Origin: Talaromyces rugulosus
Lineage: Eukaryota; Ascomycota; Eurotiomycetes; Eurotiales; Trichocomaceae
NCBI RefSeq assembly: GCF_013368755.1
Contig: NC_049565.1
Span: 930,001-994,000 of the forward strand
Direction: 5' to 3'
DNA length: 64,000 nt
Both the position numbers and the translations under genes were made by a program. The notes below the pieces were generated by a model. It did no database searches, was not told the origin of the DNA, and saw nothing but the letters and a program-made list of their open reading frames with translations. This document shows, piece after piece, positions 1 to 47,507 of the stretch (within the stretch, counting starts at the first letter, position 1; each line of letters begins with the position of its first letter).

Positions 1-80
1 TCACTTCTGGCAAATGTGATGAATATCTCGCTATAATAATATCGCGCGTTTTTTACTAACAATAGTTTGTCATATTTTAG

Positions 81-1266
81 GCAATTCGATACCGAAACTT
101 GTCACTTCCTGCGTCAGGAGAAGGTGGTTTATTAAACGAGTGGCAAGCCTGGATTGAATACGAAAGTATTGTGCGGTACGTTAAGAAGCCAAGCATGGCT
201 GTGCCTCCACCTCGCTTTCAAAGTGGCTGATAGTACTTGCAGGACAAATTACGCCATCTATGTATTTCTGTGCACACTAAGCGTTAATTTTGAAGTACCT
301 AATGCTCTCTTGGACTCAGATATGAAGGACTGCCACTTGCCGTGCAACGAAGACATCTGGCTAAGTCCAACACCCCAAACGTGGTTGGCAGTACGCCAGT
401 ATGACTCCAATCCGCCAATCCGCTTCTCTGATGCCATGAGAGAACTCAATTCTCCTCAAACCCAGCCAACCGTGGCATTCACTGCTTTTGGTGGGTATGT
501 GACGTTTCACGCACTAGTCAAACAGCTAGGAAATCTTAATCAGGGGCCGGTATGGCTTGCAATTGTCGCGCCAACCCTTTTGAATTCGCTGGAGCTTGCA
601 CTAGAAAAGTGGAGGATGTCCTTTGAGAAAGATTTCGAATACCCTTTCTTTCCGCGGTATCCCCAAGGAGTGCTCGTCATTAATTCAATTTCACTCTATC
701 GCCAGGCGCATGTGCGGCTATGTGGAGATTTCGGACCACTTCGCTCGGCCATGGCAACTCGAGATGTGCAGGAGATCGTACGAGGTATGAATTCAATAAA
801 TGTTCCCATTACGCGAACAAAAACCTGTTTGAAGGCTGCTCGATGCGCCATTGATGCTCTACGAACACCCATCAGGGTGGGTATGGCGCTTTTAGGCCGG
901 GTGCCGGGATAGTACCAAAAGCTCCTGTTCAACTTGTATTCAATAGAATGCTGTAAGCTTCCTCTTTTGCGGTGCTTCTGTACGTTTATGTGAAGCTGAC
1001 TCTACATAATTTTAGGTATTTTTTCAAGCCTTTGGATGCGTGAGGTGACAGGTTATACTGACATTATTAGCACGCCCGAGGAGCAAGAATCGGTTAAACT
1101 GACCCTGGAGACCCGGGGAGAACTGAATCTGGCTCCGGTTCACGCACAGAAACCGTTTGCGACACAATTGGTCTATGCCTGGGCCTTGATATTTGAACGT
1201 TGCAATGCTACAAAGGTTCAGGGGATTCTCGCCGAGGCACTGAATATATACGCTAGCACGTTATGA
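81..1266 (+). pseudogene. C-terminal part of a C2H2-type fungal transcription factor, with an internal stop
   Basis: The left end is cut by the window. Three exons can be joined: 81-175, 243-952 and 1016-1266 (introns with GT..AG, phases match). The protein reads through LPASGEGG, EWQAWIEYESIVR and TNYAIYVFLCTL into FEVPNALL, then ends with a helix-rich tail containing TPEEQ and AWALIFER. This resembles the 'Fungal_trans' middle/C-terminal region of C2H2-type fungal regulators. In that reading frame there is a TAG at 910-912, directly before conserved-looking sequence (YQKLLFNLYSIEC). It could be removed only by an unusually short 36-nt intron (GT at 877, AG at 911-912). I therefore call it a probable pseudogene; a sequencing error or micro-intron is the alternative. 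The zinc fingers would lie off the window. Confidence 0.6.
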
Positions 1267-1801
1267 TGGACCGTGTTCCCATTTTTATTCTAATATCATG
1301 ATCGTTTTTATTCCTTAAGCGAATAAAGTCATACAGCTGCCATTACTTTCGGCTTCCCCCAAGTCTCACAATCGAAGTCGGATAATGTCCTACTTGAGTC
1401 CTGATCTTGCGCCTGATATCCACCGATTGATAGAATATACTGATTTCTTCAAAGAACAATTAGGCTATTCCAGTATAAGTGATCAAGACGCCTTGTCACT
1501 TAGGAAACAAAAATCTATGACTGTACTAGCTTGCATTCATTCCACGGGCCGCTGGGTGGAGAAGATCGTCCCTGTATGTATCAATAATTTCGATTGCGTT
1601 TGCACGTCGCTCCGGGCCGGGTACATGTACCCGGTAAAAAAAATACCTGGTGAAAATTGTTTCTGAAACTGAGGTCAATAACAGCCACCATTCTATTGAG
1701 GTATCACATCTAGTCGATCGTTTGCTCTTAAGCGATTTCTTGGTGGACATTCACTTCCGGTGCGTGTGGACGAACTTGTTTCCCACAAAATAATATCCGC
1801 A
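1267..1801. other. Intergenic: upstream region of the TatD-family gene
   Basis: An open frame at 1385-1666 (93 codons) has no recognisable family and no splice support, so I do not call it a gene. The notable content is a perfect 18-bp palindrome at 1617-1634, listed separately. Confidence 0.5.
1617..1634. promoter_or_regulatory. Cluster palindrome site 1 (perfect)
   Basis: CCGGGTACATGTACCCGG is a perfect inverted repeat. It lies 168 bp upstream of the TatD-family start codon at 1802. It has the CGG-N10-CCG form typical of some Zn2Cys6 dimers and matches the seven sites inside the catabolic cluster. Confidence 0.65.
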
Positions 1802-2812
1802 ATGGCGCACTCAACGAGAGCGTCAACGATGCGTTTCTTCGATGTAAGTGCAAATCTTACCGGCTCTTCTCTTGCATTTGATATTAATAACTGTCAATAG
1901 GTTGCGGTGACTTTCACCGCCGATCAATTTCGTGGTATCTACCGGGGCAAGACATACCATGAACCTGATTTTGGAGAGGTTCTGAAACGAGCTGAAGATT
2001 ACGGGTGTGGAAGGGTCATGCTCACCACCATGTCACTGAGTGGAGCAGAGCAAAATCTTCAGTTAGTGAGGGAATATCCCAAGGTGTGCAGAATGACACT
2101 TGGCGTTCATCCATATCATGCGGGTGAGATCTACGCGAGTGAAAAATCTAAAGACGGCCAGAACGAATATCTCGAATCTATCAAGATGTTGGCGAGAGGC
2201 TTACTTGCAGAGATCCCTTCTCCATTGGCAGCCTTTGGAGAAATCGGGCTCGATTACGTCTACCTGGATCGGGCAGACAAAGGCACACAACAACGCGCAT
2301 TCCGAGACCAATTAGAATTAGCTACACAGCTACGATTACCCCTATTTCTGCACGTTCGTGAGTCAACCACAGACTTCGTTTCCATAATCAAGCCCTACCT
2401 GCCAAGACTACCTCGCGGTGGACTAGTACATTCCTTCGCAGGCACCAAGGAGGAAATGCTTCAGCTGGTGGAACTAGGTTTGGACATCAGCGTAAATGGT
2501 GTCTCATTCCGTACACATGAACAAATTGAGATGGTAAAACATATCCCATTGGATAGATTGCAACTCGAAACAGATGCTCCGTGGTGTGAACTTTCGAGCA
2601 ACGATCCCAAAATCGAACAGTATCTGGAGGCTGCGAGGCCCTTGCCTCCTAGTCGAAAACACAATAAGTTTATCTTGGGACAGATGGTCAAAACAAGAAA
2701 TGAAAGCTGCACTATTGAACGAGTTGGGTTAGTGGTGGCGGGGCTGAAAGGAGTGACTATGGAGGAGGTGGTTGAAGCAGCATGGAGGAATAGTTGCCGG
2801 ATGTTTTGGTGA
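1802..2812 (+). CDS. TatD-family metal-dependent hydrolase / deoxyribonuclease
   Basis: Two exons, 1802-1843 and 1901-2812, joined in phase 0 (intron GTAAGT..AATAG), give 317 residues if the first ATG is used; an in-frame ATG at 1829 (MRFFD) is a plausible shorter start. Family signatures are clear: RGIYRGK near the start, LGVHPYHA, EIGLDY, LFLHVRES, HSFAGT and LETDAPWC, which supply the usual metal ligands of the TatD TIM barrel. Known members are Mg-dependent 3'-5' exonucleases or related phosphodiesterases and hydrolases. The perfect palindrome 168 bp upstream is shared with the neighbouring catabolic cluster, so this copy may be a cluster hydrolase rather than the housekeeping nuclease. 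That role is inference; the family call is firm. Confidence 0.85.
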
Positions 2813-4136
2813 AACAATGCACATTCCTAAAGGATGATTGCAAGAACAGGAGTAAATATCTGCCTCTTTGGGCTTTGACACTTAGGTGGATCGCACACCA
2901 ATTATTTGTTCTGAAGCGGCTGGTAGTGGCCTTGCAGACACTTTCTGTCGGTCCTCTAGTGTAGCCTTGCACCCGTACCGCCTCTTAGTCCGGTAGGCTT
3001 TACCCTGGCCCGGGTTTATAGAGTTGTTTGCAGGATGTGCCAGGTAGAGCGCCAAGTAAATCAGTACCGGGAGTAGCTCTCCTACTCGTAGGGTGGCCCC
3101 AAACGTAAACAGTCAATACAATAGGCAAGGTAGAAGTCCAAGTAACAATGTAGGATTGATCGCGAATGACTAAACCAAGTACAGGAGTGAACGCCCTGTA
3201 ATGTCCTCTTCCTCCGGGTGGTAGCGTGATAGATGGATAGGTGGGTAGAAGGTGCCAAAACCCTCCCACTCATCTACTCTCGATCGGCGCTATCATGGCA
3301 TAGCCACCTGGGTTCTCACGGATCCTGGAGTTTGTGACGTAAGGTCGGGAAGAATGAAAAGGTGGCCATAAATGACAATTGATGATGCGTCGTAGGTTGA
3401 ATAACACCTCAAATAGTTGGCTGTTATAAGGGTCATAGCACTTTTTTTTTGGTTATTCAGAGTGCCCACCAGTTACAGATAAAACTGGCGTTTCTTGGGT
3501 GCGTGAAGTACAACGGTTGGTGAAACCGCACGCAACCCCGAGATGGGTACTCGGACTAACTGATAGCCATCGCCAACCATTTCGCTCTAGCTATCGCCGG
3601 ATACTAGAATTCAGGAATCTGGTCTTGATATCACGATAACATATATTCCCTGTCCATGCAAAAGTCTAACTAGATCTAAGATGTCGTTTTGATGCCATTC
3701 TAGGATTTAAATCGTTCCTAGCGAGTTGCTTGGCCAAATTTGACATAAGGGATGTTTGCCTTAATGTGATGGAACGGGTATTGTTGAATAAATTGGTCAT
3801 GCTTCTTTTTTAAAGTCTCGTTTCTTGGTATCAGCAGCGGTTTTCTTGTCTTAATTGGTGATGTTGTGCACGGAGACAGTTGGCGAGGTGTACTCGTATC
3901 TGTATGGTCGGTGTTTCTACTATCTTTCTTCTGTGCCTTTATGGGCTGTTGAGCTCATATATGTAGTTTGTTATTTTTCCCTTGCATGTTTGTCTAGCTT
4001 GGCGTTTCATTCCCTCCCATTCCCATTTTCTTTGCTTCTTATTCCTACGTCTCCTGTGTGATCCATTTTCTCCAATAGTGATAATGCTTAATTGCCGATT
4101 TTAATTTCTACTTAGGACAACCTTCACCTCGTTTTG
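2813..4136. other. Intergenic region between convergent genes
   Basis: This holds the 3' sides of the TatD-family gene and the MFS gene. Several short frames are present but show no protein-like composition or family match. No palindrome of the cluster type was seen here. Confidence 0.5.
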
Positions 4137-5737
4137 TCAATACGTATAACGGAACGAAGCCTTCTGGTAGTCTGTCAAGTCGGAAAATGGATCCGTCACC
4201 TCCGGTAATTCCTCGATACCCCTCTCCTTACCCCGTCGTGTGTTCTCCAATGAACATAGTATTCCATAAAGACAAATGCTTACACTTGCGACGATTAAGC
4301 TGGCGAGCAGGCCGATATAGCCTTTAGGATGGTTGGGAGCGTCGGAACCTTGGAAAACCTGGGGCCCAATGATATTACCAAGGCAATAGGCAAGAAAGAA
4401 AACGGCGTTCGTCGTGAGTTTCTTCGTATGGCCCGAGGTATTCGCCATGGGCAAGGTTGTCGACATGACATATGGACCCCAGTATGTATAGAAGACATAA
4501 TATGCAGCAAGGCGACCATGCCTATTCTCATCAGGTATTTGCCATAATAGAATGGCGCTGATTGTAGGAATGATATTCCCCAGTGCGATGGTGATACAGC
4601 GTCGATTTTTCAATCTGGAGGTAGGCAGCGACAGCACCAACTGCCATATGGTGGCTATGACACCTGTTGGGATTCCCAGAACTGTGGTGAGAAGGGGCGA
4701 ATAGTTCAGCCCGGAAACAATGAGCGCGGAAAAGGTCACCAGGCATCCGTTGGGGATATTTTGTGCGCATACAAAGATCGCCAATAGCCAGGTCTTTGGG
4801 TCTGAGAGGCACTCTCTCAGCTGGTACCACTTGAATGTTCGGTCCTCGATACCCGTGTTGTTTGCGCGGATGCGTCGGATGGCGATATATTTCTCTCGAT
4901 CCGACAGCCACCAACACTTTACTGGACTATCGGGAAGTAAAACCCATATTAGGATCGCCCACAGTGCTGAAAAGGCCGCCAAGGCAATGAAGAGAAGGCG
5001 CCATGGTGCAAGGGTGGAATTCGTATGGCCAATTCCGTACGAGACTAGGCCTGAGAACACCGACGAGAGCTGATGAGCTCCAAGGCATTAGTAATTGCTT
5101 GAAGGGGGACAAGCGATCTACCCACCTGATTATACCAGAATGCCACACGGACCGGCTGTTCGGACTTGGTATACCACATGACGGTCACTATAGCGGCGAT
5201 GGGATTGCATGTGGCCTCTGACATCCCCATAATAAAGCGGACCGCCATCAAGCCGGCGAAGTTCTGAGTGGCTGCAGTGCAGCCCATCAGAAAAGCCCAC
5301 AAAAACACTGTGAAGGCCAGTAACTTGGCGACGGGCAGACGTTGAATCAGGAGTGCCGAAGGATATTCGAATAGAAGATAGCCAAAGTAGAAGATGCTTC
5401 CTACCCAGGAGAACATGCTGCTCGTCAGACGGGTATCGGTCATCATGCCGTAGATGGCGGCGTTGGAGATTATGATTTTGTCGACGGCGCTGAGAATGAT
5501 AGTCCCTGAGATCAGGGGGATAATGACTAGGTCAATCTTCCATAGCACCCGTCGAGCCTCTGCCGGGTCAATGGGCTCCGAATTGGTGTCTGAGTTTCGG
5601 ATGAAGTTATCTTCTTGACTCTCTGGGAGATCACCTTTATAATCGAGTACTTCTCCGGTCTTATCTTCGTCCGGCTCCAGGGGGTTGTCGGGCACCCCAG
5701 ACTGAGAGGGAGTTGAAGAGTATTTGATATCTGACAT
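4137..5737 (-). CDS. MFS transporter, anion:cation symporter (Dal5/Fen2/Tna1-like) family
   Basis: Two exons, 5126-5737 and 4137-5069 (phase 0; intron GTGGG..CATCAG), give 514 residues. After a hydrophilic acidic N-terminus of about 60 residues the protein has WKIDLVIIPL, the loop motif YPSALLIQRLP and twelve probable membrane helices. These are hallmarks of the ACS family, which contains yeast allantoate (Dal5), nicotinate (Tna1) and pantothenate (Fen2) permeases. It should import a small organic anion at the plasma membrane. It is divergent from the amidohydrolase and shares its promoter region, with a cluster palindrome 286 bp upstream. The substrate cannot be read from sequence. Confidence 0.85.
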
Positions 5738-6344
5738 GACTGTCAGAGAAGCTGCGATTATGACCTTTCAACAAAGCAATATTTTATAAAAGAATGGATA
5801 GCAATCGCGCTATTCGAATTCATTTTACCAAGTACTAGAACTACTTTAACATGGCTACCCTTTTATACCTAGAACTTTTATGTGTTCCATAAGTTTTGAC
5901 GACATTGAGTATGCTGCTTATCTAGCCGACTCGATCCGTAGGTCCCTTACCCCACAGATAGTCAGAATAATATATGGGGTACAGTGATAACTTGGAAAAG
6001 GCTAAATGGCCATTTGGTCCGCCCGGGAGCCTGTACCCGGGCTCATGGCATGTACTGGTCTTAGGACGGATACTTCAGCCGCGCACTCGATCCGAGTGGA
6101 ATTGCCAGGCCCTACCATACAGGCGCTTGTGACCCTCATATGCTTCGGAAACATGGAAATCATGCCTGTGAACCTATCAAAGTCAATGAAGCTATCTAAT
6201 GCTAGCTATATATTCTTTCCGGCAGCTAGCACGTGGCAGGTATTCCCTCCATTTATTGTCATTCAGGATATATGTGTCATTGCACACGTCTGACACTTCT
6301 TGTCACCTCTAAATCAATTCATCTTATCAATTTGAACAACCACA
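5738..6344. promoter_or_regulatory. Divergent promoter region of transporter and amidohydrolase
   Basis: This 607-bp region separates two divergent start codons. It contains palindrome site 2 at 6023-6040 roughly midway, so one element could control both genes. No coding sequence was recognised. Confidence 0.6.
6023..6040. promoter_or_regulatory. Cluster palindrome site 2
   Basis: CCGGGAGCCTGTACCCGG keeps both CGG and CCG half-sites at N10 spacing, with two differences from the perfect palindrome. It is 286 bp from the transporter start and 305 bp from the amidohydrolase start. Confidence 0.6.
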
Positions 6345-7670
6345 ATGTCACTCTCTCCAGCATTTGTGAAGCCATGGCTACCCAAAAACGAGCACCCCTC
6401 TATCTTATTCACCGGTGCTCAGTTGGTTGATCCGGTAGACGGGCAGGTGCATCCAAATGCCTCCGTACATATCAATCAGGGCATTATTCGGGCCGTCTCG
6501 ATAATTGGGGAGCCCATTGAAACTCCAGGAAACACCATCAATGTCAATCTTGGGGGCCAATACCTCTGCCCTGGCTTGATTGACGCCCATGTCCACATTT
6601 CTGCCGTGCCAGGAGAGATGGACTTCCGCCACATCATGGCAATGCCGGAGTCTGAGGCTCTGTTGCGGATGACCTACGTCTGTAGAGACATGCTATACAG
6701 GGGGTTTACTTCGGTCCGGGACTGCGGTGGAGCGCCTGGTTCGTTGAAACAATCATGCTCAGAATGGCTTGTCCCAGGACCGCGCCTCTTTATAAGTGGT
6801 CATGCCATCAGTCAAACAGGCGGCCATGGCGATTTCCGTCATCAGCACGACCATTCACACTGCTCTTCAAGCTTCGTCTCTGGTTTGGGTCGCGTATGTG
6901 ATGGAGTGGCGGCTTGTATTGCTGTTTCCCGGGACGAGCTCCGTCGAGGTGCAGACTTCATCAAGATCATGGGTAGCGGGGGAGTGGTCAGCCCGACAGA
7001 TAAACTGGAGAACCACCAGTTCTCCCCAGAAGAGATCCAGGCCATGGTCATGGTGGCCAATAACGCGCACACATACGTGACATGCCACGCCTACAGCCCC
7101 CAGTCGATTCGAATCGCTATTGAGAACGGAGTGCGCGGAATTGAGCACGGCAACCTTATAGATAGTGACACTGCCCTATTGATGGCAGAGAAAGACTGCT
7201 ATCTGACACCGACGCTCGTGACATTCTTCTCAATGGGTGATCCAGCGGTGGCGCATTTTTTACCTCCGGACTCGCGCACAAAGAACATTGACGTAATGAA
7301 AATGGGGCTCGATGCGCTTCGGATTGCCAAGGAGTGCAATGTTACTATGTGTTATGGTTCGGATCTTCTGGGTCCGCTGGGTAAGTATCAGAACCGGGAA
7401 TTTGGATTACGTTCACAAGTGTTGTCGGCTTTGGATATTTTGCAAAGTGCGACCATCAACCCAGCTAAGATGATGGGTCAACCTCAATTGGGCCAGATCA
7501 AGCCCGGTTTCTTTGCGGACCTACTCATTCTCAAAAACAACCCGCTAGACGACATCACCGTTTTTGAGCGCTCTGATGAGGAAATCCAGCTCGTGATGAA
7601 GGAGGGTCGGGTATGCCGTAGTAGCATTGAGGCCTTGCCTGGCCTTTTAGATGAGATCATGCATTTTTAG
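6345..7670 (+). CDS. Metal-dependent amidohydrolase (imidazolonepropionase / Xaa-Pro dipeptidase-like)
   Basis: Single exon, 441 residues. The amidohydrolase-superfamily ligands are all visible: HVH at residues 82-84 after GLID, a lysine at 207 (FIKIMGSGG, the position that is carbamylated in binuclear enzymes), histidines at 248 (VTCHAY) and 268 (IEHGN), and Asp340 in CYGSD. The C-terminus returns to the small beta-sandwich (KPGFFADLLIL). Relatives hydrolyse cyclic or linear amide bonds, including N-acyl amino acids and imidazolonepropionate. Within this cluster it is the natural candidate for the first step, cleaving an amide to release an amino acid that feeds the aminotransferase. The exact substrate is unknown. 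Confidence 0.85.
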   Translation: MSLSPAFVKPWLPKNEHPSILFTGAQLVDPVDGQVHPNASVHINQGIIRAVSIIGEPIETPGNTINVNLGGQYLCPGLIDAHVHISAVPGEMDFRHIMAMPESEALLRMTYVCRDMLYRGFTSVRDCGGAPGSLKQSCSEWLVPGPRLFISGHAISQTGGHGDFRHQHDHSHCSSSFVSGLGRVCDGVAACIAVSRDELRRGADFIKIMGSGGVVSPTDKLENHQFSPEEIQAMVMVANNAHTYVTCHAYSPQSIRIAIENGVRGIEHGNLIDSDTALLMAEKDCYLTPTLVTFFSMGDPAVAHFLPPDSRTKNIDVMKMGLDALRIAKECNVTMCYGSDLLGPLGKYQNREFGLRSQVLSALDILQSATINPAKMMGQPQLGQIKPGFFADLLILKNNPLDDITVFERSDEEIQLVMKEGRVCRSSIEALPGLLDEIMHF

Positions 7671-7900
7671 GTAGATTTTCAAACGAAATCTCTTGATCAA
7701 GTCTATACAATTGATTTCAAACGCGTATTTCATGATGCAACGTAAAACATTCACATGAATGAGAATCTTGGAAAGATCATGGTAATATAAATGTGCTAAT
7801 TTGGGATAGGAATAGTATTACAATCTTGTCTTCCTACGCTGTGGTGCTATGAATTATATTTTTGGCATAAGAACAAAGTTTTATTCTTCTTTTGCTGGAT

Positions 7901-9476
7901 TTATGACAACTGCGAAAAAGCAGTCTCAAACGCTGCCAAGAGAGGAGCAACATGAGATTCCTCGAAGATCAGCATGGGGCGCAGCCGAATGGTTTGCACG
8001 CCGCAGCTACCGATATTGATGCCCAACTCGCGCATCTTCTTCAGTAGGCTGCTTGAGTCAGGCGTGTCAAAGGCAATATAGGTGCCCTTGTCCTTGCCAC
8101 GGAGACTCTGCATCCTGTTGGGATACTTGGCTGCCAGAGTAGCCAGGCTGTCGTAGAGTACTGCGCCAACTTGAGCCTGTCAGGAAAGAGATCTTGTTAG
8201 CTATTGAGTTTCATCGGATAGGAAGGTGAGGTTTACCGTCTTTTCGACCAGCTTCTTGCTCAGAATCTCGTCAATGACGGCATTGCAGATGATAATTCGG
8301 GCGGCATCTCCCATCCATCTGGTTAATGTGGTCAGTTCATTTAATTCAACAGAAGAATCATGAAATTTCCGAATTCAGGATCTCTCACGTGTTGAATTGC
8401 CGATAGGCCTTGTCGGGGCGAAGGCTACCATCGCTGAAGAAGTATCCAGCAGTTTGGGCCTTCTTAGAGAATGTAACAATATCCGCCGGGGAAGGCAGCT
8501 CCCAGTGCTCATGCGCCCAGAATTTGCCTGTTGCTCCGAAGCCGGTCTGGACCTCGTCGACAATCAAGGTGATACCGTGTTTCTTAGTGATAGCCTGAAG
8601 CTTCTGGAAAAAGTCTGGTGAGGCATGGTTGTCGCCTCCTTCGCTTTGAATGGGCTCAACAATGATACCAGCCACAGGGCAGTGCCATGAAGAAATGATG
8701 TTCTCAACCTCTTGTAGGCAGCGCTCCTCTTCCCGTGCATTCTCCTGAACGTAGTCTTCCAAGGGATATCTAAGCTGGGGGAAAGTGGCGTGGGGCCACT
8801 TGAAAGCGGGAATATCTACCTTGTGGATGGGCTTAGAACGGGTGGTGGACAAACTGCCAAAGCTGCGACCATGGAAGGAGTTCCGGAAGCTGAGAATAGC
8901 CAGATCTGGAGAGCCAGGAGCCTGATTTTTCATTGCTGTCGCCTGCTCATACTCGGTCCAAGGGCTGCCGGCGCGTTGCTGCCGACGATAGGCCATGAAA
9001 GCCGCCTTGAAAGCGAGGTCATTGGCCTCAGACCCAGATTGCGCTGGGAACACCTGTGTGCATCCAGGAGGCGCTGCCCGCATCAAACCATCGCGCAATA
9101 GAGCAAGCCATTGGCGGGAAGGGAAATTTCCAACAGCCGGGCGGTTGACCAGGGCAGAGACAATATCTGATGACTGTGCGGCCTTTATCAAAGTAGTGTT
9201 GTTGTATCCGACAGGAATAGAGGCAATTTGCGCATATACGTCAAGATAGGTGTTGCCATCAACGTCGGTGATGCTAGGGGGACCGTCAGGAAATGAGCCT
9301 GGAGGCCAAATTAGGTTGATAACTTACTAGTTTCCGAAGCTTTGGTCATAATTGATGACCATTTGCACAGTGCGGGCATCAATAACAGCATCTAAATCCT
9401 CTTTGATTCTGTGCGTATCAGGTCCAGGGATCGCTGTGCGGATTGAGGGCGCGGCTGGTTCAGATACAGAAGACAT
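7901..9476 (-). CDS. Class III PLP aminotransferase, 4-aminobutyrate (GABA) aminotransferase type
   Basis: Four exons (9328-9476, 8389-9273, 8237-8318, 7901-8176) join with consistent phases to 463 residues, starting MSSVSEPAAP. Eukaryotic GABA-transaminase signatures are present: SGSEANDLAFKAAF, SFHGRSFGSLS, VEPIQSEGGD, IVDEVQTGFGATGKFWAHE and the PLP-lysine region TFSKKAQTAGYFF. The enzyme transfers the amino group of an omega-amino acid (GABA, beta-alanine or similar) to 2-oxoglutarate, giving a semialdehyde. No obvious mitochondrial presequence is seen. It is divergent from the ketopantoate-reductase-like gene, with palindrome site 3 between them. Beta-alanine versus GABA preference cannot be decided from sequence. 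Confidence 0.9.
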
Positions 9477-9898
9477 GACGAAAATGAAATAGAAAGAAGG
9501 GAAGTGATCAAAAAAAGACAACAGAGATCCGTTATCGGGTTGTGTGGAAATGAAAGCCCCGAAGGTAGTGACTCGGTGCACTTATATGAGACTCCAGGCA
9601 CATAGTTTGCCGACTCGGACCGGGTAGACAACCTGAAACCTGGCGAGAACGAAAGAAAGAGAAATAAAACCAGAGACTGTACAGGAATTCACAAATTCCA
9701 AGTAATTAAAATGCTTGTTGACGGGCGAAACTTGCCGATCTAACTTTTTTTTAATGGATTGTGTGTATATAGAAGGCCGGGTGACGGTACCCAGGAAATT
9801 TATTTTTTGTTCCGCAATATCATAACCTGAGATATTTCTTTTCTCTGGTATGACTCGAGATATTACATGCTCTTTAAATTTATTCGTCTTCTTTATCA
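9477..9898. promoter_or_regulatory. Divergent promoter region of aminotransferase and ketopantoate-reductase-like genes
   Basis: A 422-bp divergent spacer holding palindrome site 3 (9777-9794). A possible further half-site, CCGGGTAG, lies near 9620. No coding content was recognised. Confidence 0.55.
9777..9794. promoter_or_regulatory. Cluster palindrome site 3
   Basis: CCGGGTGACGGTACCCAG matches the 18-bp consensus with the same spacing and three differences. It is 105 bp upstream of the ketopantoate-reductase-like start and 301 bp upstream of the aminotransferase start. Confidence 0.55.
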
Positions 9899-11018
9899 AT
9901 GTCATCAAAGGCCCGGGTTCTTTTGGTTGGAAGTGGTGGAATCGGCACCATCGCCGCCCTGAATCTTGAGCAGGGGAAGCTCGCCGAAGTTTCCTGCGTA
10001 TTACGTTCAAATTATACCACGGTTGTTAAGAGAGGATTCCAAATAAATTCATACGAGCACGGTAAAATTCAAAATTGGCGTCCAACGGAAAGTAAGTGAT
10101 GGTATATACGATGGAGGTCGTTTCCTATCGCTGATAAATTTAGTTGCTTCTAGTTCTGAACACTGTCCCCCACGTCACTGAAAGTAATAGACCATTTGAA
10201 TATATTGTGTGCTGCACCAAAAATGTACCTGACGCTGGACCCTCATTATGGGAAATCATAGCCCCCGGGACCACTGCTGGTCATACGGTGATTGTTTTGA
10301 TCCAAAACGGGTTAAACATTGAGAGACAGTTCCTATCGCGTTTCCCCGAAAACATCATCTTATCCGGAGTGAGCCGGATTGATGCCCACGAGGTCACACC
10401 GGGTGTGATCGAACAGAAACAGAAAGACAACTTGCACATTGGCGCCTTTGACAATGCGCGACTACATATTGATGACCAAAGACGAGCTGCGGAACGATTT
10501 GTCAGACTTTACAATGCAGGCGAGCATACTACTTGCCTTTACGAGCCTGACGTGGCTCACGATCGCTGGAGCAAGCTGGTCTACAACGCGACCCTAAATC
10601 CCATATGTGCGTTGACCGGAGTGAACTCAGGGGATCTGCACTTAACAGAGGGCACTTTTGATGCCCTTGTGATTCCTGCCATGAAGGAAGTGACACAAGT
10701 ATCTGAAGCCAAAGGATACCAACTTCCCGAAAACATTATACTAGAGACTATTCTCAGCAATCCTACTGATGAAAAGATCTCTCCCAGCATGCAAATTGAT
10801 TTGGAGAAGGTTCGTGAAGAAAACCTTAAATCATGTGTTGCAAGAATAGTTGCTGATAAAACAATGTGCAGGGCAACTTGATCGAGCACGAGAACATCCT
10901 AGGAGAAGTGATTCGAGAAGCGCAATTAGTGGGCGTGGCCACCCCAATTCTGTGCACATTGTACGCACTTTGCTCCATAGTGCAAGGAAAAACAAAAAGA
11001 TCCAAGGGCCTAGAGTGA
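9899..11018 (+). CDS. 2-dehydropantoate 2-reductase (ketopantoate reductase, ApbA/PanE) family protein
   Basis: Three exons, 9899-10091, 10154-10809 and 10872-11018, give 331 residues. The N-terminal Rossmann motif is LLVGSGGIGTIAALNL; then CCTKNVPD, IQNGLNIE and the C-terminal helical domain with DRWSKLVYNATLNP (catalytic Lys/Asn region) and a final GNLIEHENILGEV. Canonical members reduce 2-ketopantoate to pantoate with NADPH in coenzyme A synthesis. This copy sits in a catabolic cluster and under the cluster palindrome, so it probably acts on a 2-oxo/2-hydroxy acid intermediate and may run in the oxidative direction. The second intron was placed so that EKG joins NLIEHEN; the alternative read-through ends early. 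Confidence 0.85.
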
Positions 11019-11231
11019 TGCAAAAGGTTGTCGAGACAACATTGGACGATATAGTAGAGTTTAAAATCTGCACGCGGTAGCGTGTATAAATAAAAATACC
11101 AATCGCATTCTGTTACGCTCCCCATAAAATTAATGGACCCTTTGAGAATGGAAGAAAACTGGCGATGGGTACTTTCAATGTTTCTTGCTTTTAGTAAAGG
11201 CTCAGCGGCCTCCGGAGTTTCTCAACACGAC

Positions 11232-11249
11232 ATGGGTACGCGTACCCGG
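11232..11249. promoter_or_regulatory. Cluster palindrome site 4
   Basis: ATGGGTACGCGTACCCGG has a perfect inner 14-bp palindrome (GGGTACGCGTACCC) and differs only in the outer left bases. It is 263 bp upstream of the dehydrogenase start. Confidence 0.65.
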
Positions 11250-11363
11250 CTCCGCCTATCCTACTAGAGCCTGGTAACCATAAAGCCTCGGCGTATGTTG
11301 CCAGTGAAAAATAGGATAACAGTCTGGTCCTGGTGGCAATGAACCAACTGCACGCCGGCAACT

Positions 11364-11381
11364 TCAAGTACATGTACCCGG
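11364..11381. promoter_or_regulatory. Cluster palindrome site 5 (one strong half)
   Basis: TCAAGTACATGTACCCGG retains GTACATGTAC and the right half-site but has lost the left CGG. It lies 131 bp upstream of the dehydrogenase start. Confidence 0.5.
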
Positions 11382-11511
11382 GAACCTCACTTCACCCGTA
11401 GTATACAGAACAGGCTGACCACTTTCAGGCCCTCCATTCGGTCCTTAAAGAGTAGAGAGATCGCATGCTATTTTTCTCAAAACGATCCAAAAATATGACC
11501 TATCAGCACAA

Positions 11512-12651
11512 ATGACAGTGCCATCCTATCGTATTGGATCTATTCCTGGAGATGGGATTGGCCTTGAGGTCATCTCAGCTGCCATCGAGGTAGTTAGGAA
11601 GCTTTCCTCGACGTTGAAGACGTTCTCGATTGAATTCACCGATCTTCCATGGGGATCTGATTACTGGAAGAAGACTGGCTCCTACGTACCTGAGGATTAT
11701 CTGGAAACTTACCGGAAGTTCGACGCCAGCCTATTTGGATCTGTGGGCGCACCCGGTAAGTGAATCTATATATGCCTTCTGCAACATGGTCAGCCAGTTA
11801 ACGAATACACAGATGTTCCAGATCATGTTTCCCTTTGGGGTCTTCTTCTTGCCATTCGGAGTCCTTTGCAGCTGTTCGCCAATGTCCGTCCAGTGCGAAC
11901 GTTCCCCGGAACTAAAAGCCCTCTCGCGAATCCACCCCCCGAAGGAATCGACTGGGTCCTTGTGCGAGAGAATTCCGAAGGTGAATATTCGGGGCATGGC
12001 GGTCGCTCTCATGTTGGTCAGCCTTGGGAAGTAGCGACTGAAGTGGCCATATTTACACGTGTGGGAGTGGTTCGCATTCTTCGATTTGCATTCGAGACTG
12101 CGCAATCCCGGCCACGAAAGCACTTGACGGTCGTTAGTAAAAGCAATTCCCTACGCAACGGACTTGTTCTTTGGGATGAGGTGGCAGCAGAAGTTGCCCG
12201 GGACTTCCCTGATGTAACTTGGGACAAGACTTTGGTGGATGCCATGACCATTCGCATGGTCAACAACCCCCATACTATTGACACTATTGTGGGCACAAAT
12301 CTCCATATGGATATTCTGTCTGACCTGGCCGCTTCGCTTGCGGGATCAATTGGCATTGCTGCTTCCAGTAACTTAGATCCTACTCGAAAAAATCCCTCAA
12401 TGTTCGAGCCGGTCCACGGTAGTGCGTTTGATATCACCGGGAAGGGACTTGCCAACCCCCTTGGAGCTATCTGGTCAGCGGCTGACATGCTGACATGGCT
12501 GGGTGAAGCGCCGGCAGCTGATCACCTAATGGAATGCGTGAAGGCCGTCTGTCGAGCAGGTATCTTGACGGCGGATCTTGGGGGAAATGCGAAGACACAG
12601 GATGTTGTGAATGCAATTTGCGAAGAGATTGAGCATCGGGGTCTGGGATAG
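11512..12651 (+). CDS. Tartrate / D-malate / 3-isopropylmalate-type decarboxylating dehydrogenase
   Basis: Two exons, 11512-11755 and 11813-12651 (phase 1 joins ..GAPG to DVPDHVSLWG), give 360 residues. The beta-hydroxyacid decarboxylating dehydrogenase fold is obvious: SIPGDGIGLEV at the N-terminus, LFGSVGAP, FANVRPVRTFPG, VRENSEGEYSGHGG, the metal-binding stretch NLHMDILSDLAASL, and FEPVHGSAFDI near the NAD site. The VRENSEGEYSG region is more like tartrate/D-malate dehydrogenase (TtuC/DmlA) than leucine-pathway isopropylmalate dehydrogenase. The reaction is oxidation of a 2-hydroxyacid with a 3-carboxylate and loss of CO2. Within the cluster a substituted malate is the likely substrate; dimethylmalate is one idea. 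Confidence 0.87.
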
Positions 12652-13175
12652 TGCGCATTTTCTTTGCCAGTGTATATGAATTGGTATAGAAATTGAAATT
12701 CATCAAATCTCAATACCTAGAGATCATCCCTTATACTGACTTTGGATGGTTACTGCTGAGAATTCTCTGCCGTGCTTAATGTTTCAGGCCTTTAGTACAC
12801 GCTCAGAAACTGAATAGGTAGCATTGCTGGTACCAGTTTCCATAGAAATATCAACCGTTGTTCGTTGCTCTCGTCAGTTATAATCAAGCGGATTAATTAT
12901 TATTTTTTACTACCTGGCGAAACAGAAGCAGCTAAATGCTTCTACGTGCTGAAAGATCAGAGAGCAGGCGTCGACTCCTTTCGGGGAATTTTACAATTTA
13001 GCCGACTAAGCATTATAGTCCGAGTGCAGAAAATATGGAATGTTTTGCGTAGGAGAAGGTTTGTTATCATGCAAATTCGCCTTGAATTTTCAACAGAATA
13101 TAGGTTTAACCCGGCCGTTAAACCACTTCGACGGATCCTCCATACACCCCATGTTAGAAGCCACGTTTATTTAAC
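12652..13175. other. Intergenic region between convergent genes
   Basis: The region between the 3' ends of the decarboxylating dehydrogenase and the aldehyde dehydrogenase. An open frame at 12865-13179 has no recognisable family. I see no element of interest. Confidence 0.5.
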
Positions 13176-14832
13176 TTAAAAGATTCCACCCAGGGTGATA
13201 GTCTTGATATTCACAAATTCCTCAATTCCATACTTGCTTCCCTCGCGGCCAAATCCACTCTCTTTCACTCCACCAAATCTGCAAGATAAATAGTCATGTT
13301 AGGCAGCAATTCAAGAATGTGTATTGGGGGGAGATGATGCTTACGGGGCAGCAACGTCACTGACAGAGCCGGTGTTGGCACCGACCATACCGACCTCGAG
13401 AGCTTCCGCTACACGGAAGACTCTTCTGATGTTATCACTGAAGATATACGCCGCCAGGCCAACCTCGCAGCGGTTGGCTAGCTGGATCACCTCGTCCTCA
13501 GTGTCGAAGGGGAACAGGGCCGCCACGGGTCCGAACGTTTCTTCAGAGGCAATGCGCATATCATGGGTCATATCAGCCAGGACCGTAGGTTGAAAGAATG
13601 TCGGTCCTAGTTCTCGGATAGGGTTTCCTCCCAGAAGAACACGAGCACCTTTGGATTTGGCGTCCACAACGTGGTCAGCAACTTTTTGTGCAGCTGCGGG
13701 ATGGATGAGAGGCCCTAGGGTGACACCTTGCGCGAATCCATGTCCGACCTTCAAGTCCCTAATGCGCTTGACAAGTCGCTCCGCGAAAGCTTCATAGTGG
13801 AATCGGTGAATGTAGATTCGATTAGCGCAGACGCAGGTCTGTCCAGTACCTCGAAACTTCGACGCAAGAGCACCAGTTACCGCGGCATCGATATCCTCCA
13901 CGTCATCAAAGACGATGAACGGAGCATTACCACCAAGCTCCCAAGAAACTCTTTTGACGCTAGAAGAAGCTTGTCCCATAAGGAGCTTACCCACACGAGT
14001 CGAGCCAGTAAACGAGACCTTCTTGATATCCGAATGAGTGGTAAGAATTTGGCCGACCTCAGCGGTATTTTCCAGAGCAGTGACGATGTTTACCGCGCCT
14101 TTAGGAATACCCGCTCGAAGGGCTAGTTCTGCGAGAGCATTGGCAGTAAATGGAGTCTCCCCAGGGCTTTTCGCGACGACTGTACAGCCAGCCGCCAATG
14201 CCGGGCCAATCTTACGGGTGATCATAGCGGCAGGGAAGTTCCATGGAGTGATCAAGCCGCAGACACCCACGGGCTCTTTGACAGTTAGGACTCGGTTCCC
14301 CGGGATGGATACAGGAATCGTATCGGCGTACAGCCGGGGGGCTTCCTCGCTGAACCATTCAATGAAGGCTGCGGCGTACTTGATCTCGTCTTGGGCCTCG
14401 GCAAACGGTTTTCCATTCTCCCAGGTTATTAAGGTCGCCAAGTCGTCCGCATTTTGCAGGATGAGGTCATTCCAACGCCTCAGCAATCGAGACCTTTCAC
14501 GTACTGACGTCTTGCGAAAGACTGGAAATGCATCCGAAGCTGCCTTGATGGCTCTCTCGGTATCTTTTGCGCTGAATTCTGGGCATGTTCCGATGACTTT
14601 ATTGGTGGCTGGATCTATTCATCCGTCGTCAGCAGCGTAGCGACAGACTATTGGAAATTTCCTTACCAGTGACCTCAAATGTTTTGCCCGATTGTGCCCC
14701 AACCCATTCACCGTTGATCTGGCATTTTTCAATGAACAAAGACTTGTCTTTTAACTAAATCTAAACGTCAACCGTAGTTTACACCAATAGAACACGCATT
14801 TCTAGACTTACTTGTGGCACGGTATGAGTCAT
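13176..14832 (-). CDS. NAD(P)-dependent aldehyde dehydrogenase, succinate-semialdehyde dehydrogenase type
   Basis: Four exons (14812-14832, 14667-14754, 13345-14614, 13176-13278) give 493 residues; the first exon is only 21 nt (MTHTVPQ) and joins [11 protein letters not shown]. Typical motifs are [61 protein letters not shown], the catalytic cysteine in [26 protein letters not shown] and the C-terminal [13 protein letters not shown]. It is closest to the GabD/Uga2 class that oxidises succinate or other short semialdehydes. It is the expected partner of the omega-aminotransferase in the same cluster, converting the semialdehyde to an acid. Palindrome site 6 is 345 bp upstream. Confidence 0.9.
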
Positions 14833-15833
14833 GGTGAATGCTCGTATTCTTGTTTGGCGAAGTGAAAGTCGTAGAAAGCCAAAGCCGATGAGACACATGG
14901 AGTATCAACGATGTGCGTGTTGCCTTGATTGTGATCAGAAGGCCACATATGTTTAGTTTGTATTTATTATTTACAATACAACATATTTATTCTGTTCCTA
15001 CTTGCCGGCTTCTTTGACGATACCAGTGGACCCGGGCCGGGATTAGATACAGAGCAATTGACGGCGATATATTCGTCTATCGTTCGCGTGGGAATCACCA
15101 GCTTAAGGTGGGACATTTCAAGCTGGTTAGGCACCCAGAGTCTCGATTTTGCCCCACGGCCGATAATGCGATGTCCTCGGGTGCATGTACCCTAGGTGGT
15201 GATATCACCGTGCAAGACACCTTGCAGATATAAATCGGTTTGTGTAATTGTCGGCGAGTAGAATACATTATGGAATTTGAAGAACTGCTCACGTGCATTT
15301 GTTCTGGGATAAATTATTAACCTTTCCGTCTAAATTCGTAATCGACAGTTCCCGCGCAGGAGTTTACCAGGAGCTTTCGGGCTCACAACCTATTCGGTAG
15401 AACGCTGAGGGCTATCTAAAATAAACAATTAGCTAAAGCAACACTGAATAGTAGTGCAAGCAATGTATTGGTTGGGTGAGCAAACCTTTAGGTATGGAAA
15501 GACTATCTATGGAGATTTGGAAGCATATGGAATGAGGCACCCAAGCCACCACCCTTTGAACAGTTTAATAACACCAAATATAACAGTGTAGGTAGCTCTT
15601 CATTCGATCTACAAGATTAAGCTCTCTAGCTGATGAATAAGAATCTTATGAGCAAATTGGTGAAAATTGCCTGGCAAAGCAGAACCTATATATAGATAGA
15701 CTCCTCGGGGCGAGCTTGATCAACGCGAAATTCAACTTTGAGAAATAAATAATTTACATGCAAATGAAGACAGGAAAAATTGCCGTGTTGGAACACCACG
15801 TAGCTAGAGAGATATTAATTCATGCATCAACAT
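14833..15833. other. Intergenic: ALDH promoter side and 3' side of the HAD gene
   Basis: About 1 kb without a supported gene. The ALDH-proximal part holds palindrome site 6 and a separate CCCGGG-containing stretch near 15030-15041 that may be a half-site. The rest shows nothing recognisable. Confidence 0.5.
15177..15194. promoter_or_regulatory. Cluster palindrome site 6
   Basis: TCGGGTGCATGTACCCTA has GGGTGC-AT-GTACCC at the consensus spacing. It is 345 bp upstream of the aldehyde dehydrogenase start. Confidence 0.5.
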
Positions 15834-16547
15834 CTACTGTCCGGCCCCAATTGCTTTAGCCATATCGCCCATAGTGTCAAACCGCCAATCATAAATATTA
15901 TCCGACAGATTTCCCATACTGGCGCCGGGTCGCTCAATCCAGGCGGACTTGATTCCAATCTTGCTGGCAGGGTGATGGTCATGGAACTGGCTCTGGGCGG
16001 TTTGCAGGACCCGCGAGGGTTCAATATCGAAGGTCGATTTTACCGCTTTGAGCATGTATTCAAAGTTGCGGAGATCAGGCTTATAGGAGCCCACATCTTG
16101 AGCAGTGATGATCAAATCGAAGGGGAAGCCCTCGAGGCTGCCTGCGTTGGTCTTGGCGAAAGATGCACGATCAACATTCGATAGAACGACCAACTTGTAG
16201 TGCTTTGAGAGGCACTTGAGAGCATCAACAGTGTCCGGGAAGGCAGGCCAGCTGCCGACTGACTCCCCGAACTGGTTGCATTCTTCCTGCGAGGGGGCCG
16301 CCAGGCCCAGGCGACTGGCGAACTGCGGGAGTAAAGTGGTCAACAACTGGTGGTAGGGCATCTCGGGTGTCTTGGTCTGCTGCTCTCGCTCCAGCTCGTG
16401 ATAAATGGTAAGGAGGTGTTTGCGCGAGAATTGGGCATTATTTTTGTCTAGAGTGGGCTGAATAGCAGCCAGGATGCCTCCCTCCCAGTCCACAAGGGTG
16501 CCGTAGACATCAAAGGACAACACGCGGTAGTCGGAAAGTTGAGTCAT
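15834..16547 (-). CDS. Haloacid dehalogenase (HAD) type II-like hydrolase
   Basis: Single exon, 237 residues, close to the 220-240 of type II 2-haloacid dehalogenases. HAD motif I is SFDVYGTLVDWEGG with the nucleophile Asp13; motif II is VVLSNVDRASF; motif III lysine is in DVGSYKPDLRNFEYML; the C-terminal part has HHPASKIGIKSAWIERPG. Family members hydrolyse 2-haloacids, but many fungal homologues of this size have unknown substrates and may be phosphatases. Its start is 96 bp from palindrome site 7, so it is probably co-regulated with the cluster. Its step in the pathway is unclear. Confidence 0.85.
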   Translation of the reverse strand: MTQLSDYRVLSFDVYGTLVDWEGGILAAIQPTLDKNNAQFSRKHLLTIYHELEREQQTKTPEMPYHQLLTTLLPQFASRLGLAAPSQEECNQFGESVGSWPAFPDTVDALKCLSKHYKLVVLSNVDRASFAKTNAGSLEGFPFDLIITAQDVGSYKPDLRNFEYMLKAVKSTFDIEPSRVLQTAQSQFHDHHPASKIGIKSAWIERPGASMGNLSDNIYDWRFDTMGDMAKAIGAGQ

Positions 16548-16935
16548 TGCGAATAGCTGATTGTAGTTGTGATAAAATCAATGGCACGACAAGTGAACAG
16601 ATTGAAGATCGAAGAGCGGCATAGCCTTTTAATCGCACCCGTCCGGGTACTGAGACCCGAGATCAAGACCTTCATTGGATGTAGCGCTATCAAACCACGA
16701 TAACAGTACTCTTATTGTCACTAGAAACTTGAAAAAAAATCAGTCCCGAACCCTTTCATGCATTATCTCTTGTGTGTATACCGCAATCCCACAAGCCGGG
16801 CTCTCCTTCATGACTCATTACTTTTGATAGACATAGCACGTTTTGTTAAACGATATTGGCAACAAGTCTACTGAATCGGAATTCGAGAATAAAATGATAT
16901 TCGCAGGAGCCATTCAGTAATTCTACCTAGTAAAT
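16548..16935. other. Intergenic: HAD promoter
   Basis: This 388-bp spacer between two genes on the minus strand holds palindrome site 7 close to the HAD start. Nothing else was recognised. Confidence 0.5.
16643..16660. promoter_or_regulatory. Cluster palindrome site 7
   Basis: CCGGGTACTGAGACCCGA keeps CGG and CCG at N10 spacing. It is 96 bp upstream of the HAD-type gene, the shortest distance of the set. Confidence 0.6.
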
Positions 16936-18349
16936 CTACCCCAACGCTGCTAATTTTTCTACCTCGCCCTTGAGAGCCCTTTTGACCCGTTCAATCATGT
17001 CGGCTTCAATAACCCCTTCTTGCCAGGTAAATCCCAATGCCAACCTTCCATCCGGGCCTGTCACAGCACTGACCTTGATCGCGGCGCTGCAAGCACTAGA
17101 GCTCTGGCTGAACAACATACTCTCAATCTCGAAGTTCGAACCTCCTCGTAAAGTAGAACTTGCCCCGACGTTGGATAGCTCAAAGGCACTCATTCTCTTT
17201 CGGCCCAGCTTTTGTAACATCCAGTGATGCTGGTTTTGGATAAATGCCAAGTATCCAACGGGCATGTCACCCCCTTTCTGTGCCATGGTATGTTCAATGG
17301 CAATCTTGGTGCGGCGGGCTTCATCCCAATCAAAAGATGGCATCCTGAGGTACGTGGTGGATGAAGATCCGACGTAGCAGCCCAAAGTGGTAGCAGTGAC
17401 TGGCTCAGGAAGGAACCTTCGTAGTGATACTGCACAGTCGCCCTGGAGTGTACGATATGTTGATGGAAGAACAGAGAAAATGCAGGTAGCAATGAGGGCT
17501 TGAAGCGCCGCCGTGACGGAGGTCTGCTCCTTCTTACTCAGTGTCATCAGCATTTTTGTGTCAACATCAGACAGCCATAAAGAAGAAAAGCGAGTCTTCA
17601 TGGGCGTGAACTGGGGAGCAGCCGTCCAGCTATCATGAGATGGCTCGGTATACTTCTCTTGAGATCGTAAGAAATCTTGCGAAACAGGGAGAGTATATAA
17701 CCCCTCTAGTGGGGGGACAAGGGGACCAGGAAAGCCATAGACCACGTCACTTGGCTCAACGCCGGCATATTGCGCCATGTGTCCTTCCATTTCATCGTGG
17801 AACGAAAGAGCACTTTTGGTGTCCATGAGAGAATGGTGAAATATGAACACAAGCGTAAAGCTTCCGGGGACATTGTTGCTCTCTAGAACAAATATTCTCC
17901 AGAATGGAAGCGTCCTGTTAGACTGAACCTCGAAGGGGCAATTGTGTTGCTCCTCGAGGACTTTGTCGACGATCTCTTGCCAATCAGGGCTCGGAGGATT
18001 CGCATCTTCTTCCACGAAAGTCACAACCTCACTCAGTGCAATCTTAGGAAGACGGATAAAATATGGATCTGGTGTTTCAACGGCAAGTGGAATAGCCGAA
18101 AGTATAGGGTGCTTCGAGATGAGCGCCGAGAGAGCGTGAAAGAGTGCCGGTTTCACGGGTACTCCGCTTGGCCGCTTGTAGCGGGCTGTCAGGCCCACGT
18201 TGAGATAGATCCCCAAGTGACTCCGTGTCGTCGAATACTTTTCCGCATGTCCTAATGACTGTCAGCAATTGTAAGATTCAAAGGACGTAGACATGATAAC
18301 CCAACAGCCGCAATGACGTAAACCTTGCTTCACGGAACAAGTCCTCCAT
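16936..18349 (-). CDS. HHxxxD acyltransferase (alcohol/amine acetyltransferase, condensation-domain fold)
   Basis: Two exons, 18334-18349 and 16936-18251, give 443 residues. The first exon is only 16 nt (MEDLF plus one base) and was chosen because it yields MEDLFRHAEKYSTTRSHLG, the usual N-terminus of fungal alcohol-acetyltransferase-like (PapA5/AATase) proteins. The acyl-transfer motif is FHHSLMD, about a third of the way in; a second region around ELSNVGAS matches the C-terminal subdomain. Such enzymes move an acyl group from CoA to an alcohol or amine. In a catabolic cluster it could protect or detoxify an intermediate; that is speculative. Palindrome site 8 is 133 bp upstream. Confidence 0.8.
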
Positions 18350-18932
18350 GGTGACTGACAAAGAGCTATTAAGGTCCGACTAGGAATCTCTGTTGCGATT
18401 TTCCTAAAGCCAGGTAGGTGGTGTCGTTTGCTTTCTGGCTATTGTTTCGCAATACCAGCAACACTTTTTCATACTTCCGGTCCGGGTACGCGTACCCGCC
18501 TGGGCTCAACATAATCTTTGAATTTTTATAGCTGAGACGCGATAGAAAATTGCCTGATAACATTGTGATACTATTGGTTTATCTTTCTGCGTTTTCTAGG
18601 ATAGTGAGTTGACAAGGAAGAGAATCTATTTTGATCCTGCATACGAGCTGGGCAAAATCTGGCCAGCATGAGTTCCAACCCATGCCAGCATACTATCAGA
18701 TGCAAACAAATCCGACCTAAATTGTAGCCTCGGGCATTCCTCTCCAATGAGCTAATCTCGCTGATGGAAGATCATTTTGGTCCATCAAGTTGTGCATTTC
18801 TTTCGTCGCTAGGCGTTCTATGTCTATCTCTTATCAAGAAGTCGCTTACGTCATTTGTGTCAGACACATAACGTTCTTCCCCGCGATCTTCATCTTTTCT
18901 TTGGAACATAGAGACTCTTGCCCTGTGTTACA
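18350..18932. promoter_or_regulatory. Divergent promoter region of acyltransferase and regulator
   Basis: A 583-bp spacer containing palindrome site 8, which is nearer the acyltransferase. If the regulator binds here it may also control itself. Confidence 0.55.
18482..18499. promoter_or_regulatory. Cluster palindrome site 8
   Basis: CCGGGTACGCGTACCCGC differs from the perfect palindrome only in the last base. It is 133 bp upstream of the acyltransferase and 434 bp upstream of the Zn2Cys6 regulator. Confidence 0.65.
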
Positions 18933-47214: not shown

Positions 47215-47507
47215 AATTATTTTTTGTGTTTTGCGAAACGACAGCAGTTGCATTGATGTCGAGTGCCGCAAAATATGGCGGTCATTGACGTCAGCGCATC
47301 TCTACCCACCCCGCGGGACGGATCCGGCTCCAATCACCTTACCATGAGTGATAGCTTACTCTCTTTTAAAGCTTGTGATGTAATACGGCTGTTTCTTGTT
47401 TCTTCGTTGTCACACATATATATTGTGCTCGCCATTTGAGCCTTGACAACCTTCGACGATCTCGCCGTTGACCCCGCAGTCAACAGTCAATACAGTGTTA
47501 AGCCAAC

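Follow-up and report, generated by a model that had tools for sequence, protein, structure and literature searches.

An inverted-repeat family as the predicted operator set of a Zn2Cys6 regulator in a putative catabolic gene cluster of Talaromyces rugulosus

Background

In Saccharomyces cerevisiae, Put3 binds CGG-N10-CCG, and solved structures of this protein include 1ajy and 1zme, the latter of which we take to be the complex with DNA. According to the available part of PMC5983819, PrnA binds inverted CCGG-N-CCGG and direct CCGG-N6/7-CCGG repeats. In another paper, CGG-N10-CCG itself is named as a candidate site for the promoter of cyp51A. A Zn2Cys6 site common to the promoters of a fungal gene cluster is a well established and familiar arrangement, as described in the available parts of the texts on TerR (PMC4360782) and on the "islands of sites" of CASSIS (PMC5570095), in which a pathway-specific motif common to several promoters indicates which genes belong to a cluster and where it ends. 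Here we describe a gene cluster of Talaromyces rugulosus located at one end of a 64-kb window (the whole stretch analysed, C5:930001-994000, whose first letter is position 1 in all coordinates below), in which eight inverted repeats probably constitute the operator set of a pathway-specific Zn2Cys6 activator that is most likely encoded by the adjacent gene at 18933-21494.

Neither the motif nor the cluster was found, among the matches listed, in the literature on Zn2Cys6 clusters, gamma-aminobutyrate (GABA) and amidohydrolases, pantothenate or CGG-N10-CCG, and both seem undescribed so far.

A single family of inverted repeats

The predicted sites are given below without strand, with mismatches counted against the 18-mer CCGGGTACNNGTACCCGG and scores from a matrix built on all eight.

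1617..1634, site 1, CCGGGTACATGTACCCGG, with the TatD-family gene downstream; 0 mismatches, matrix 29.3
6023..6040, site 2, divergent promoter of the major facilitator superfamily (MFS) transporter and the amidohydrolase; 2 mismatches, matrix 23.3
9777..9794, site 3, divergent promoter of the GABA transaminase and the PanE-like gene; 3 mismatches, matrix 19.9
11232..11249, site 4, tartrate dehydrogenase-like promoter, distal; 2 mismatches, matrix 22.1
11364..11381, site 5, tartrate dehydrogenase-like promoter, proximal; 3 mismatches, matrix 20.4
15177..15194, site 6, succinate-semialdehyde dehydrogenase-like promoter; 4 mismatches to the 18-mer and 1 to GGGTACNNGTACCC, matrix 21.1
16643..16660, site 7, haloacid dehalogenase type II-like promoter; 3 mismatches, matrix 17.9, the weakest of the eight
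18482..18499, site 8, divergent promoter of the acyltransferase-like gene and the Zn2Cys6 regulator; 1 mismatch, matrix 25.0

All eight sites that the initial annotation had placed here with identical spacing were recovered, each consisting of an 8-bp arm, a 2-bp gap and a second, inverted 8-bp arm. They form one family with the core GGGTAC-NN-GTACCC at a single fixed spacing and GGGTAC is intact in at least one arm of every site (8/8), but the palindrome that they had been said to share is not identical from site to site: it is perfect only at 1617, the remaining seven differing by 1-4 mismatches from CCGGGTACNNGTACCCGG. The commonest letters over the 16 half-sites are C (10), C (13), G (15), G (15), G (16), T (15), A (12) and C (14), so that the core consists of GGGT, and CGG, the triplet in the label CGG-N10-CCG, varies more than that name implies. 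Indeed, this form occurs literally in only half of the sites (1617, 6023, 16643 and 18482), the other four holding the same register with a changed triplet base. When half-sites were scored singly over bases 1-18932 and paired at gaps of 0-12 in all orientations, the inverted class with gap 2 comprised 8 pairs and every other class of gap and orientation at most 2.

Within the window, 7 matches to the 18-mer at up to 3 mismatches compare with 0.09 expected from shuffled sequences, none of 100 shuffles reaching 7, while the bare CGG-N10-CCG occurs 19 times against 9.7 expected (about twofold; one shuffle in 100 reaches 19). The sites score 17.9-29.3 with the matrix and the best non-site place, which lies within the regulator coding sequence, 11.9; a Markov model of the window predicts 0.03 places per 64 kb at a score of 16 or more. 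In a leave-one-out analysis the sites scored 11.0-28.0 and the held-out site exceeded all non-site places of the window in 8 of 8 cases, with the narrowest margin at 16643 (11.0 versus 9.0). Perfect palindromes with 8-bp arms and a 2-bp gap occur twice in the window, at 1617 and 43933; the former has 6 relatives there at up to 3 mismatches, the latter none. Beyond the regulator gene, matches at up to 3 mismatches are absent from the window and matrix scores do not exceed 7.8, and the earlier statement that it contains no further sites holds both at this mismatch limit and at the matrix scores of the family. A chance origin of the site family within the window is excluded.

Placement relative to gene starts

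The eight sites all fall inside the seven intergenic regions of the cluster that hold a gene start, each of these having at least one, and the three tail-to-tail intergenic regions have none. The shared motif is thus found in the promoters of all cluster members (7/7 gene-start regions, 0/3 tail-to-tail). Gene-start regions represent 4,030 of 21,494 bp, for which such a placement has a probability of ca. 1.5e-6 by length alone; in this test the regions were delimited by ten genes and a left-edge frame, with positions 1-1265 taken as coding and the first region as 1266-1801. The left-edge frame at 136-912 had been considered as the relic of a fungal regulator, a reading that was dropped since Pfam finds no domain in it; Pfam finds none either in the frame L019:9505-9861.

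For the nine structural genes, the distance from site centre to ATG is 104.5-353.5 bp, in agreement with the 96-345 bp given previously from the site start. Site 18482 is centred 442.5 bp from the ATG of the regulator. Three of the seven regions are divergent promoters, the third being common to the acyltransferase and the regulator: coverage of nine structural gene starts stood as initially described, but the sites in divergent promoters number three rather than two if the regulator is counted. The site in this third promoter makes regulation of the regulator by its own product likely.

HGATAR motifs are also over-represented in the seven gene-start regions (1266-18932), with 26 occurrences compared to 14.9 (standard deviation 3.8) in Markov controls, 1 of 300 of which reaches this number. 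This excess is possibly compatible with AreA-type nitrogen control.

Concentration of the motif in the genome

A scan of the whole genome (35.76 Mb in six contigs), proposed in the initial annotation as a check that could have refuted its reading, came out in favour of that reading and found the motif concentrated in the cluster. At up to 1 mismatch, the two places matching the 18-mer are both in the cluster; at up to 2 mismatches, 4 of 6 lie within its 17 kb; and at up to 3 mismatches, 7 of 66, when ca. 0.03 of 66 would be expected in 16.9 kb by length. The 14-mer core GGGTACNNGTACCC gave a similar picture, with 3 of 5 exact places and 4 of 31 at up to 1 mismatch in the cluster, as did GGGTRCNNGTACCC (4 of 8) and CGGGTAC-N5-CCCG (4 of 6). 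A control with the spacing increased by one, CGGGTAC-N6-CCCG, occurs at 11 places in the genome, none of them in the cluster.

Outside the cluster, matrix scores were obtained for 41 distinct 18-mers at 43 places, drawn from 50 listed of the 66 places; one of these 18-mers scores 12.2. Two of the high-scoring places were inspected for their surroundings: L008 (20.3) has no spanning frame longer than 94 aa and lies ca. 600 bp upstream of a frame for an alpha-L-fucosidase, and L012 (19.8) is inside a thioesterase-family frame. Five near-matches at G000:C4:2370760-2371911 are spaced by multiples of 126 bp and are therefore evidently part of a tandem repeat.

The adjacent regulator gene

The candidate regulator is encoded at the edge of the cluster, and its locus tag points to strain W13939:

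18933..21494, plus strand, Zn2Cys6 regulator, PrnA/Put3-like, TRUGW13939_08863; zinc cluster ACLPCRQHKEKC-GGGNPCTRCEQHQRTC; PF00172 29.7 bits (cut-off 21) and PF04082 Fungal_trans 89.9 bits (cut-off 23)

With both domains above their cut-offs, the earlier assignment of a Zn2Cys6 gene at 18933 is confirmed. PUT3 chains are the top two matches among solved structures (expectation values, E, of 1.6e-4 and 2e-4 over ca. 35 residues), which makes this zinc cluster closest to that of Put3 and supports the Put3-type link drawn initially; the protein thus carries a Put3-like Zn2Cys6 domain. Three Penicillium homologues have 66-76% identity at full coverage, and a basic arm like GRQRRPRVPESLRKRA precedes the zinc cluster in all three and in the T. 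rugulosus protein. Some homologues are named "PrnA-like".

The regulator model used for the domain, homologue and paralogue comparisons is wrong around residues 147-196, where HYSGELSHWNF or a near variant stands in the annotated protein P0001 and in most homologues, and its zinc cluster is unaffected. The deposited P0001 (644 aa) begins at about residue 85 of the present model and is without the zinc cluster, short introns splitting 18933-19337; several Penicillium homologues are likewise listed without PF00172. Automatic annotation may therefore miss the DNA-binding domain. In the genome, 51 stretches match it at E up to 0.001, four of which are its own exons, and the closest other regulator genes lie near C3:5.04 Mb and C1:1.03 Mb.

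Proposed switch and alternative explanations

Concentration in the genome, placement at gene starts, one spacing and a Put3-like zinc cluster all support the reading of the family as pathway-specific operators. A homodimer would read two half-sites (CGGGTAC), each through one of its zinc clusters, over the fixed 2-bp gap, which would leave 10 bp from CGG to CCG. With one site per gene-start region, two before the tartrate dehydrogenase-like gene and divergent pairs sharing theirs, all nine structural genes would come under one inducer-dependent switch, probably together with the regulator itself, the inducer presumably being a substrate or an intermediate of the catabolic pathway. The binding of the regulator, its activating role and the identity of the inducer are what we infer from these features. 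The operator set had been called complete, which is the case inside the cluster (7/7 gene-start regions), but unlinked targets may exist elsewhere.

Several observations weigh against this interpretation. The consensus and the matrix were built from the same eight sites, to which the leave-one-out analysis is only a partial answer, and the spacing test relied on half-sites scored with a matrix derived from the gap-2 sites themselves. An unbiased seed search of the window did not put the family first: the 1617 seed ranks 367 of 63,983, in a ranking that is not a useful test, with overlapping positions unmerged and the top 25 seeds inspected, and this rank counts against a strong claim of uniqueness. 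In the genome, the pattern read backward, a control that differs from it in base order, is more numerous than the pattern itself for the 18-mer (139 versus 66) and for the 14-mer core (81 versus 31), as well as for CGGGTAC-N5-CCCG (8 versus 5 forward), the opposite being seen for GGGTRCNNGTACCC (5 versus 8 forward); since the control is more numerous in some of the searches, the motif is not frequent genome-wide and its excess is only local. At least five outside places (20.3, 19.8, 18.8, 18.3 and, at L024, 18.0) score in the range of the cluster and match its weakest site, so that a regulon cannot be defined from the site by itself. Finally, PrnA, whose name some homologues bear, binds other geometries, and other Zn2Cys6 proteins of the genome could be the binders.

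Judged by eye, the 25 top seeds of the window search were for the most part runs rich in A/T or in pyrimidines and matches to a tandem repeat near 60 kb. The latter corresponds to a frame at 60143-60637 which repeats NVALL, a tandem repeat of ca. 15 bases.

That the sites are genuine operators of a different Zn2Cys6 protein, whether unlinked or a paralogue, is unlikely, even if the genome carries related regulators such as those near C3:5.04 Mb and C1:1.03 Mb. The gene at 18933 adjoins the cluster and shares with it a site-bearing promoter (18482), a cluster gene is the locus-tag neighbour of the regulator in two further species, and sites are absent from four loci of 3.6-3.7 kb surrounding its two nearest paralogues, where the best matrix scores are 5.4 and 7.7. 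A regulator with a more general role in nitrogen or amine use, binding throughout the genome with the cluster as its densest target, would account for the five outside places scoring like cluster sites, and the HGATAR excess hints at additional AreA-type control; nevertheless, the strongest sites sit in the cluster and the two outside neighbourhoods considered, out of five places, an alpha-L-fucosidase and a thioesterase, are unlike one pathway, and we regard this explanation as improbable.

An origin of the palindromes as small dispersed repeat remnants, or through chance resemblance, is very improbable. It would agree with the failure of the seed search to rank the family first, but the 12-base flanks on either side share no sequence as judged by eye, the remainder of the window beyond the regulator gene is free of comparable matches (none at up to 3 mismatches, matrix at most 7.8), and the sites are confined to the gene-start regions of a single cluster in which the motif is concentrated genome-wide. 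The reading preferred here, an operator set of the adjacent regulator, would provide a precise predicted operator for an uncharacterised Zn2Cys6 protein and suggests borders for a catabolic cluster, whose co-regulated gene set guides the search for its substrate. With eight sites and sixteen half-sites at one spacing, the cluster also offers a ready set of natural variants for recognition studies in the Put3/PrnA family.

Cluster genes and possible substrate

The structural genes are listed below; models with introns were made in this analysis by choosing GT-AG introns.

1802..2812, plus strand, TatD-related DNase family protein, one intron; PF01026 E 1.9e-47
4137..5737, minus strand, MFS transporter, one intron; PF07690 E 6.1e-35, best NCBIfam TIGR00893, under cut-off
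6345..7670, plus strand, amidohydrolase (Xaa-Pro dipeptidase / imidazolonepropionase-like); PF01979 E 2.6e-41, closest solved 3mkv and 3feq
7901..9476, minus strand, 4-aminobutyrate transaminase (eukaryotic type), three introns; TIGR00699 698.4 bits, cut-off 567.15
9899..11018, plus strand, ketopantoate reductase-like (PanE/ApbA), two introns; TIGR00745 156.6 bits, cut-off 141.35
11512..12651, plus strand, tartrate / D-malate dehydrogenase-like beta-decarboxylating dehydrogenase, one intron; TIGR02089 479.8 bits, cut-off 470.4
13176..14832, minus strand, succinate-semialdehyde dehydrogenase-like aldehyde dehydrogenase, three introns; TIGR01780 658.1 bits, cut-off 646.35
15834..16547, minus strand, haloacid dehalogenase type II-like hydrolase; TIGR01428 119.1 bits, slightly below cut-off 125.4
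16936..18349, minus strand, alcohol acetyltransferase / condensation-like acyltransferase, one intron; PF07247 E 3.7e-20, no NCBIfam match

Four enzymes pass curated NCBIfam cut-offs, namely the GABA transaminase, the succinate-semialdehyde dehydrogenase, the tartrate dehydrogenase and the PanE subfamily member. Together with the amidohydrolase and the transporter, they suggest the breakdown of an amide releasing GABA or beta-alanine, a lead drawn from gene content. A fungal GABA/amidohydrolase cluster of this kind was not found in the literature, as judged by title.

A more specific proposal, which we consider doubtful, is that of a fungal pantothenate-degradation regulon switched by one Put3-like dimer through the extended CGGGTAC-NN-GTACCCG site. 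Following the route of pantothenate degradation in bacterial biochemistry, an importer would be followed by an amide hydrolase giving beta-alanine and pantoate; the class-III transaminase and the aldehyde dehydrogenase would process beta-alanine, the PanE-like oxidoreductase would act on pantoate and the D-malate-dehydrogenase-like enzyme on 3,3-dimethylmalate. The TatD, dehalogenase-like and acyltransferase genes are left unexplained by this scheme. In the tartrate dehydrogenase-like protein the framework is kept and one stretch (11851-11895) is more hydrophobic, with AIRSPLQLFANVRPV versus KFRREFDQYVNIRPV in 3flk, a change that might accommodate a gem-dimethyl substrate but is no more than a lead because the same stretch varies among isopropylmalate and homoisocitrate enzymes. 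No fungal catabolic cluster for pantothenate was found by title among the matches listed in the literature on pantothenate catabolism.

Outside the cluster, the window contains at 47502-49202 a single-exon frame of 566 aa which is presumably acetolactate-synthase-like, a thiamine diphosphate enzyme.

Relatives in other species

Regulator and cluster genes are also found side by side elsewhere, as a two-gene adjacency by locus tag: in Penicillium brevicompactum, the consecutive tags N7541_004660 / 004661 correspond to relatives of the regulator and the acyltransferase, and in Aspergillus nanangensis, FE257_004427 / 004426 to relatives of the regulator and the amidohydrolase. Relatives of the regulator and of cluster genes are probably on the same contig in P. 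egyptiacum, P. mononematosum, P. griseofulvum, P. crustosum and A. floccosus, as the two proteins come from contigs of the same length; where these contigs are long, this does not imply adjacency. The adjacency and this probable contig linkage support a lasting bond between the regulator and the cluster genes.

Among the best 120 matches listed for the regulator, the best named relatives are from Penicillium, mostly with 66-81% identity over the aligned part, and other Talaromyces proteins reach just 36-39%. The best named relatives of the acyltransferase are from Penicillium and Aspergillus (79-80% identity), and unnamed metagenome proteins are closer, with 90% for the acyltransferase and 97% for the amidohydrolase. 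The region encoding the regulator and the acyltransferase (16936-21494) may have a patchy distribution, possibly reflecting horizontal transfer.

Comparison with known systems

The arrangement is reminiscent of the CASSIS islands of sites, although that method, in the available part of its description, is meant for secondary-metabolite clusters. According to the available part of PMC4360782, the promoters of all genes required in the terrein cluster of Aspergillus terreus contain a TerR site, and a basic N-terminal stretch aids binding by TerR, a likeness to the conserved basic arm that precedes the zinc cluster here; the TerR site TCGGHHWYHCGGH differs, however, in that its CGG triplets are repeated directly, with 5 bp between them. 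The Fusarium FDB1/FDB2 benzoxazolinone clusters, from the available part of their description, resemble the present one as detoxifying gene clusters, but the parallel was unsupported in a comparison of text only, the terms aminobutyrate, semialdehyde, dehalogenase, amidohydrolase and pantoate being absent from the main text of PMC4726666.

The prn cluster of Aspergillus nidulans is, like this one appears to be, a catabolic cluster with its own Zn2Cys6 activator (PMC5983819, available part). The Talaromyces sites differ from those of PrnA in being inverted, with a gap of 2 and a length of 18 bp, and PrnA-type recognition was not found, with 8 inverted gap-2 pairs and at most 2 in other classes as scored with a half-site matrix that is not PrnA's own. 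The likeness to Put3 lies in the zinc cluster, for which it is the best solved relative (E 1.6e-4), and extends in part to the sites, 4 of 8 having inverted CGG and CCG triplets exactly 10 bp apart. In contrast, the sites are longer here, with a conserved GGGTAC...GTACCC core up to the dyad, and the protein match is restricted to ca. 35 residues of the zinc cluster. For the predicted regulator, the most fitting description is thus a protein that acts like a Put3-type dimer, rather than an identification as Put3 or PrnA.

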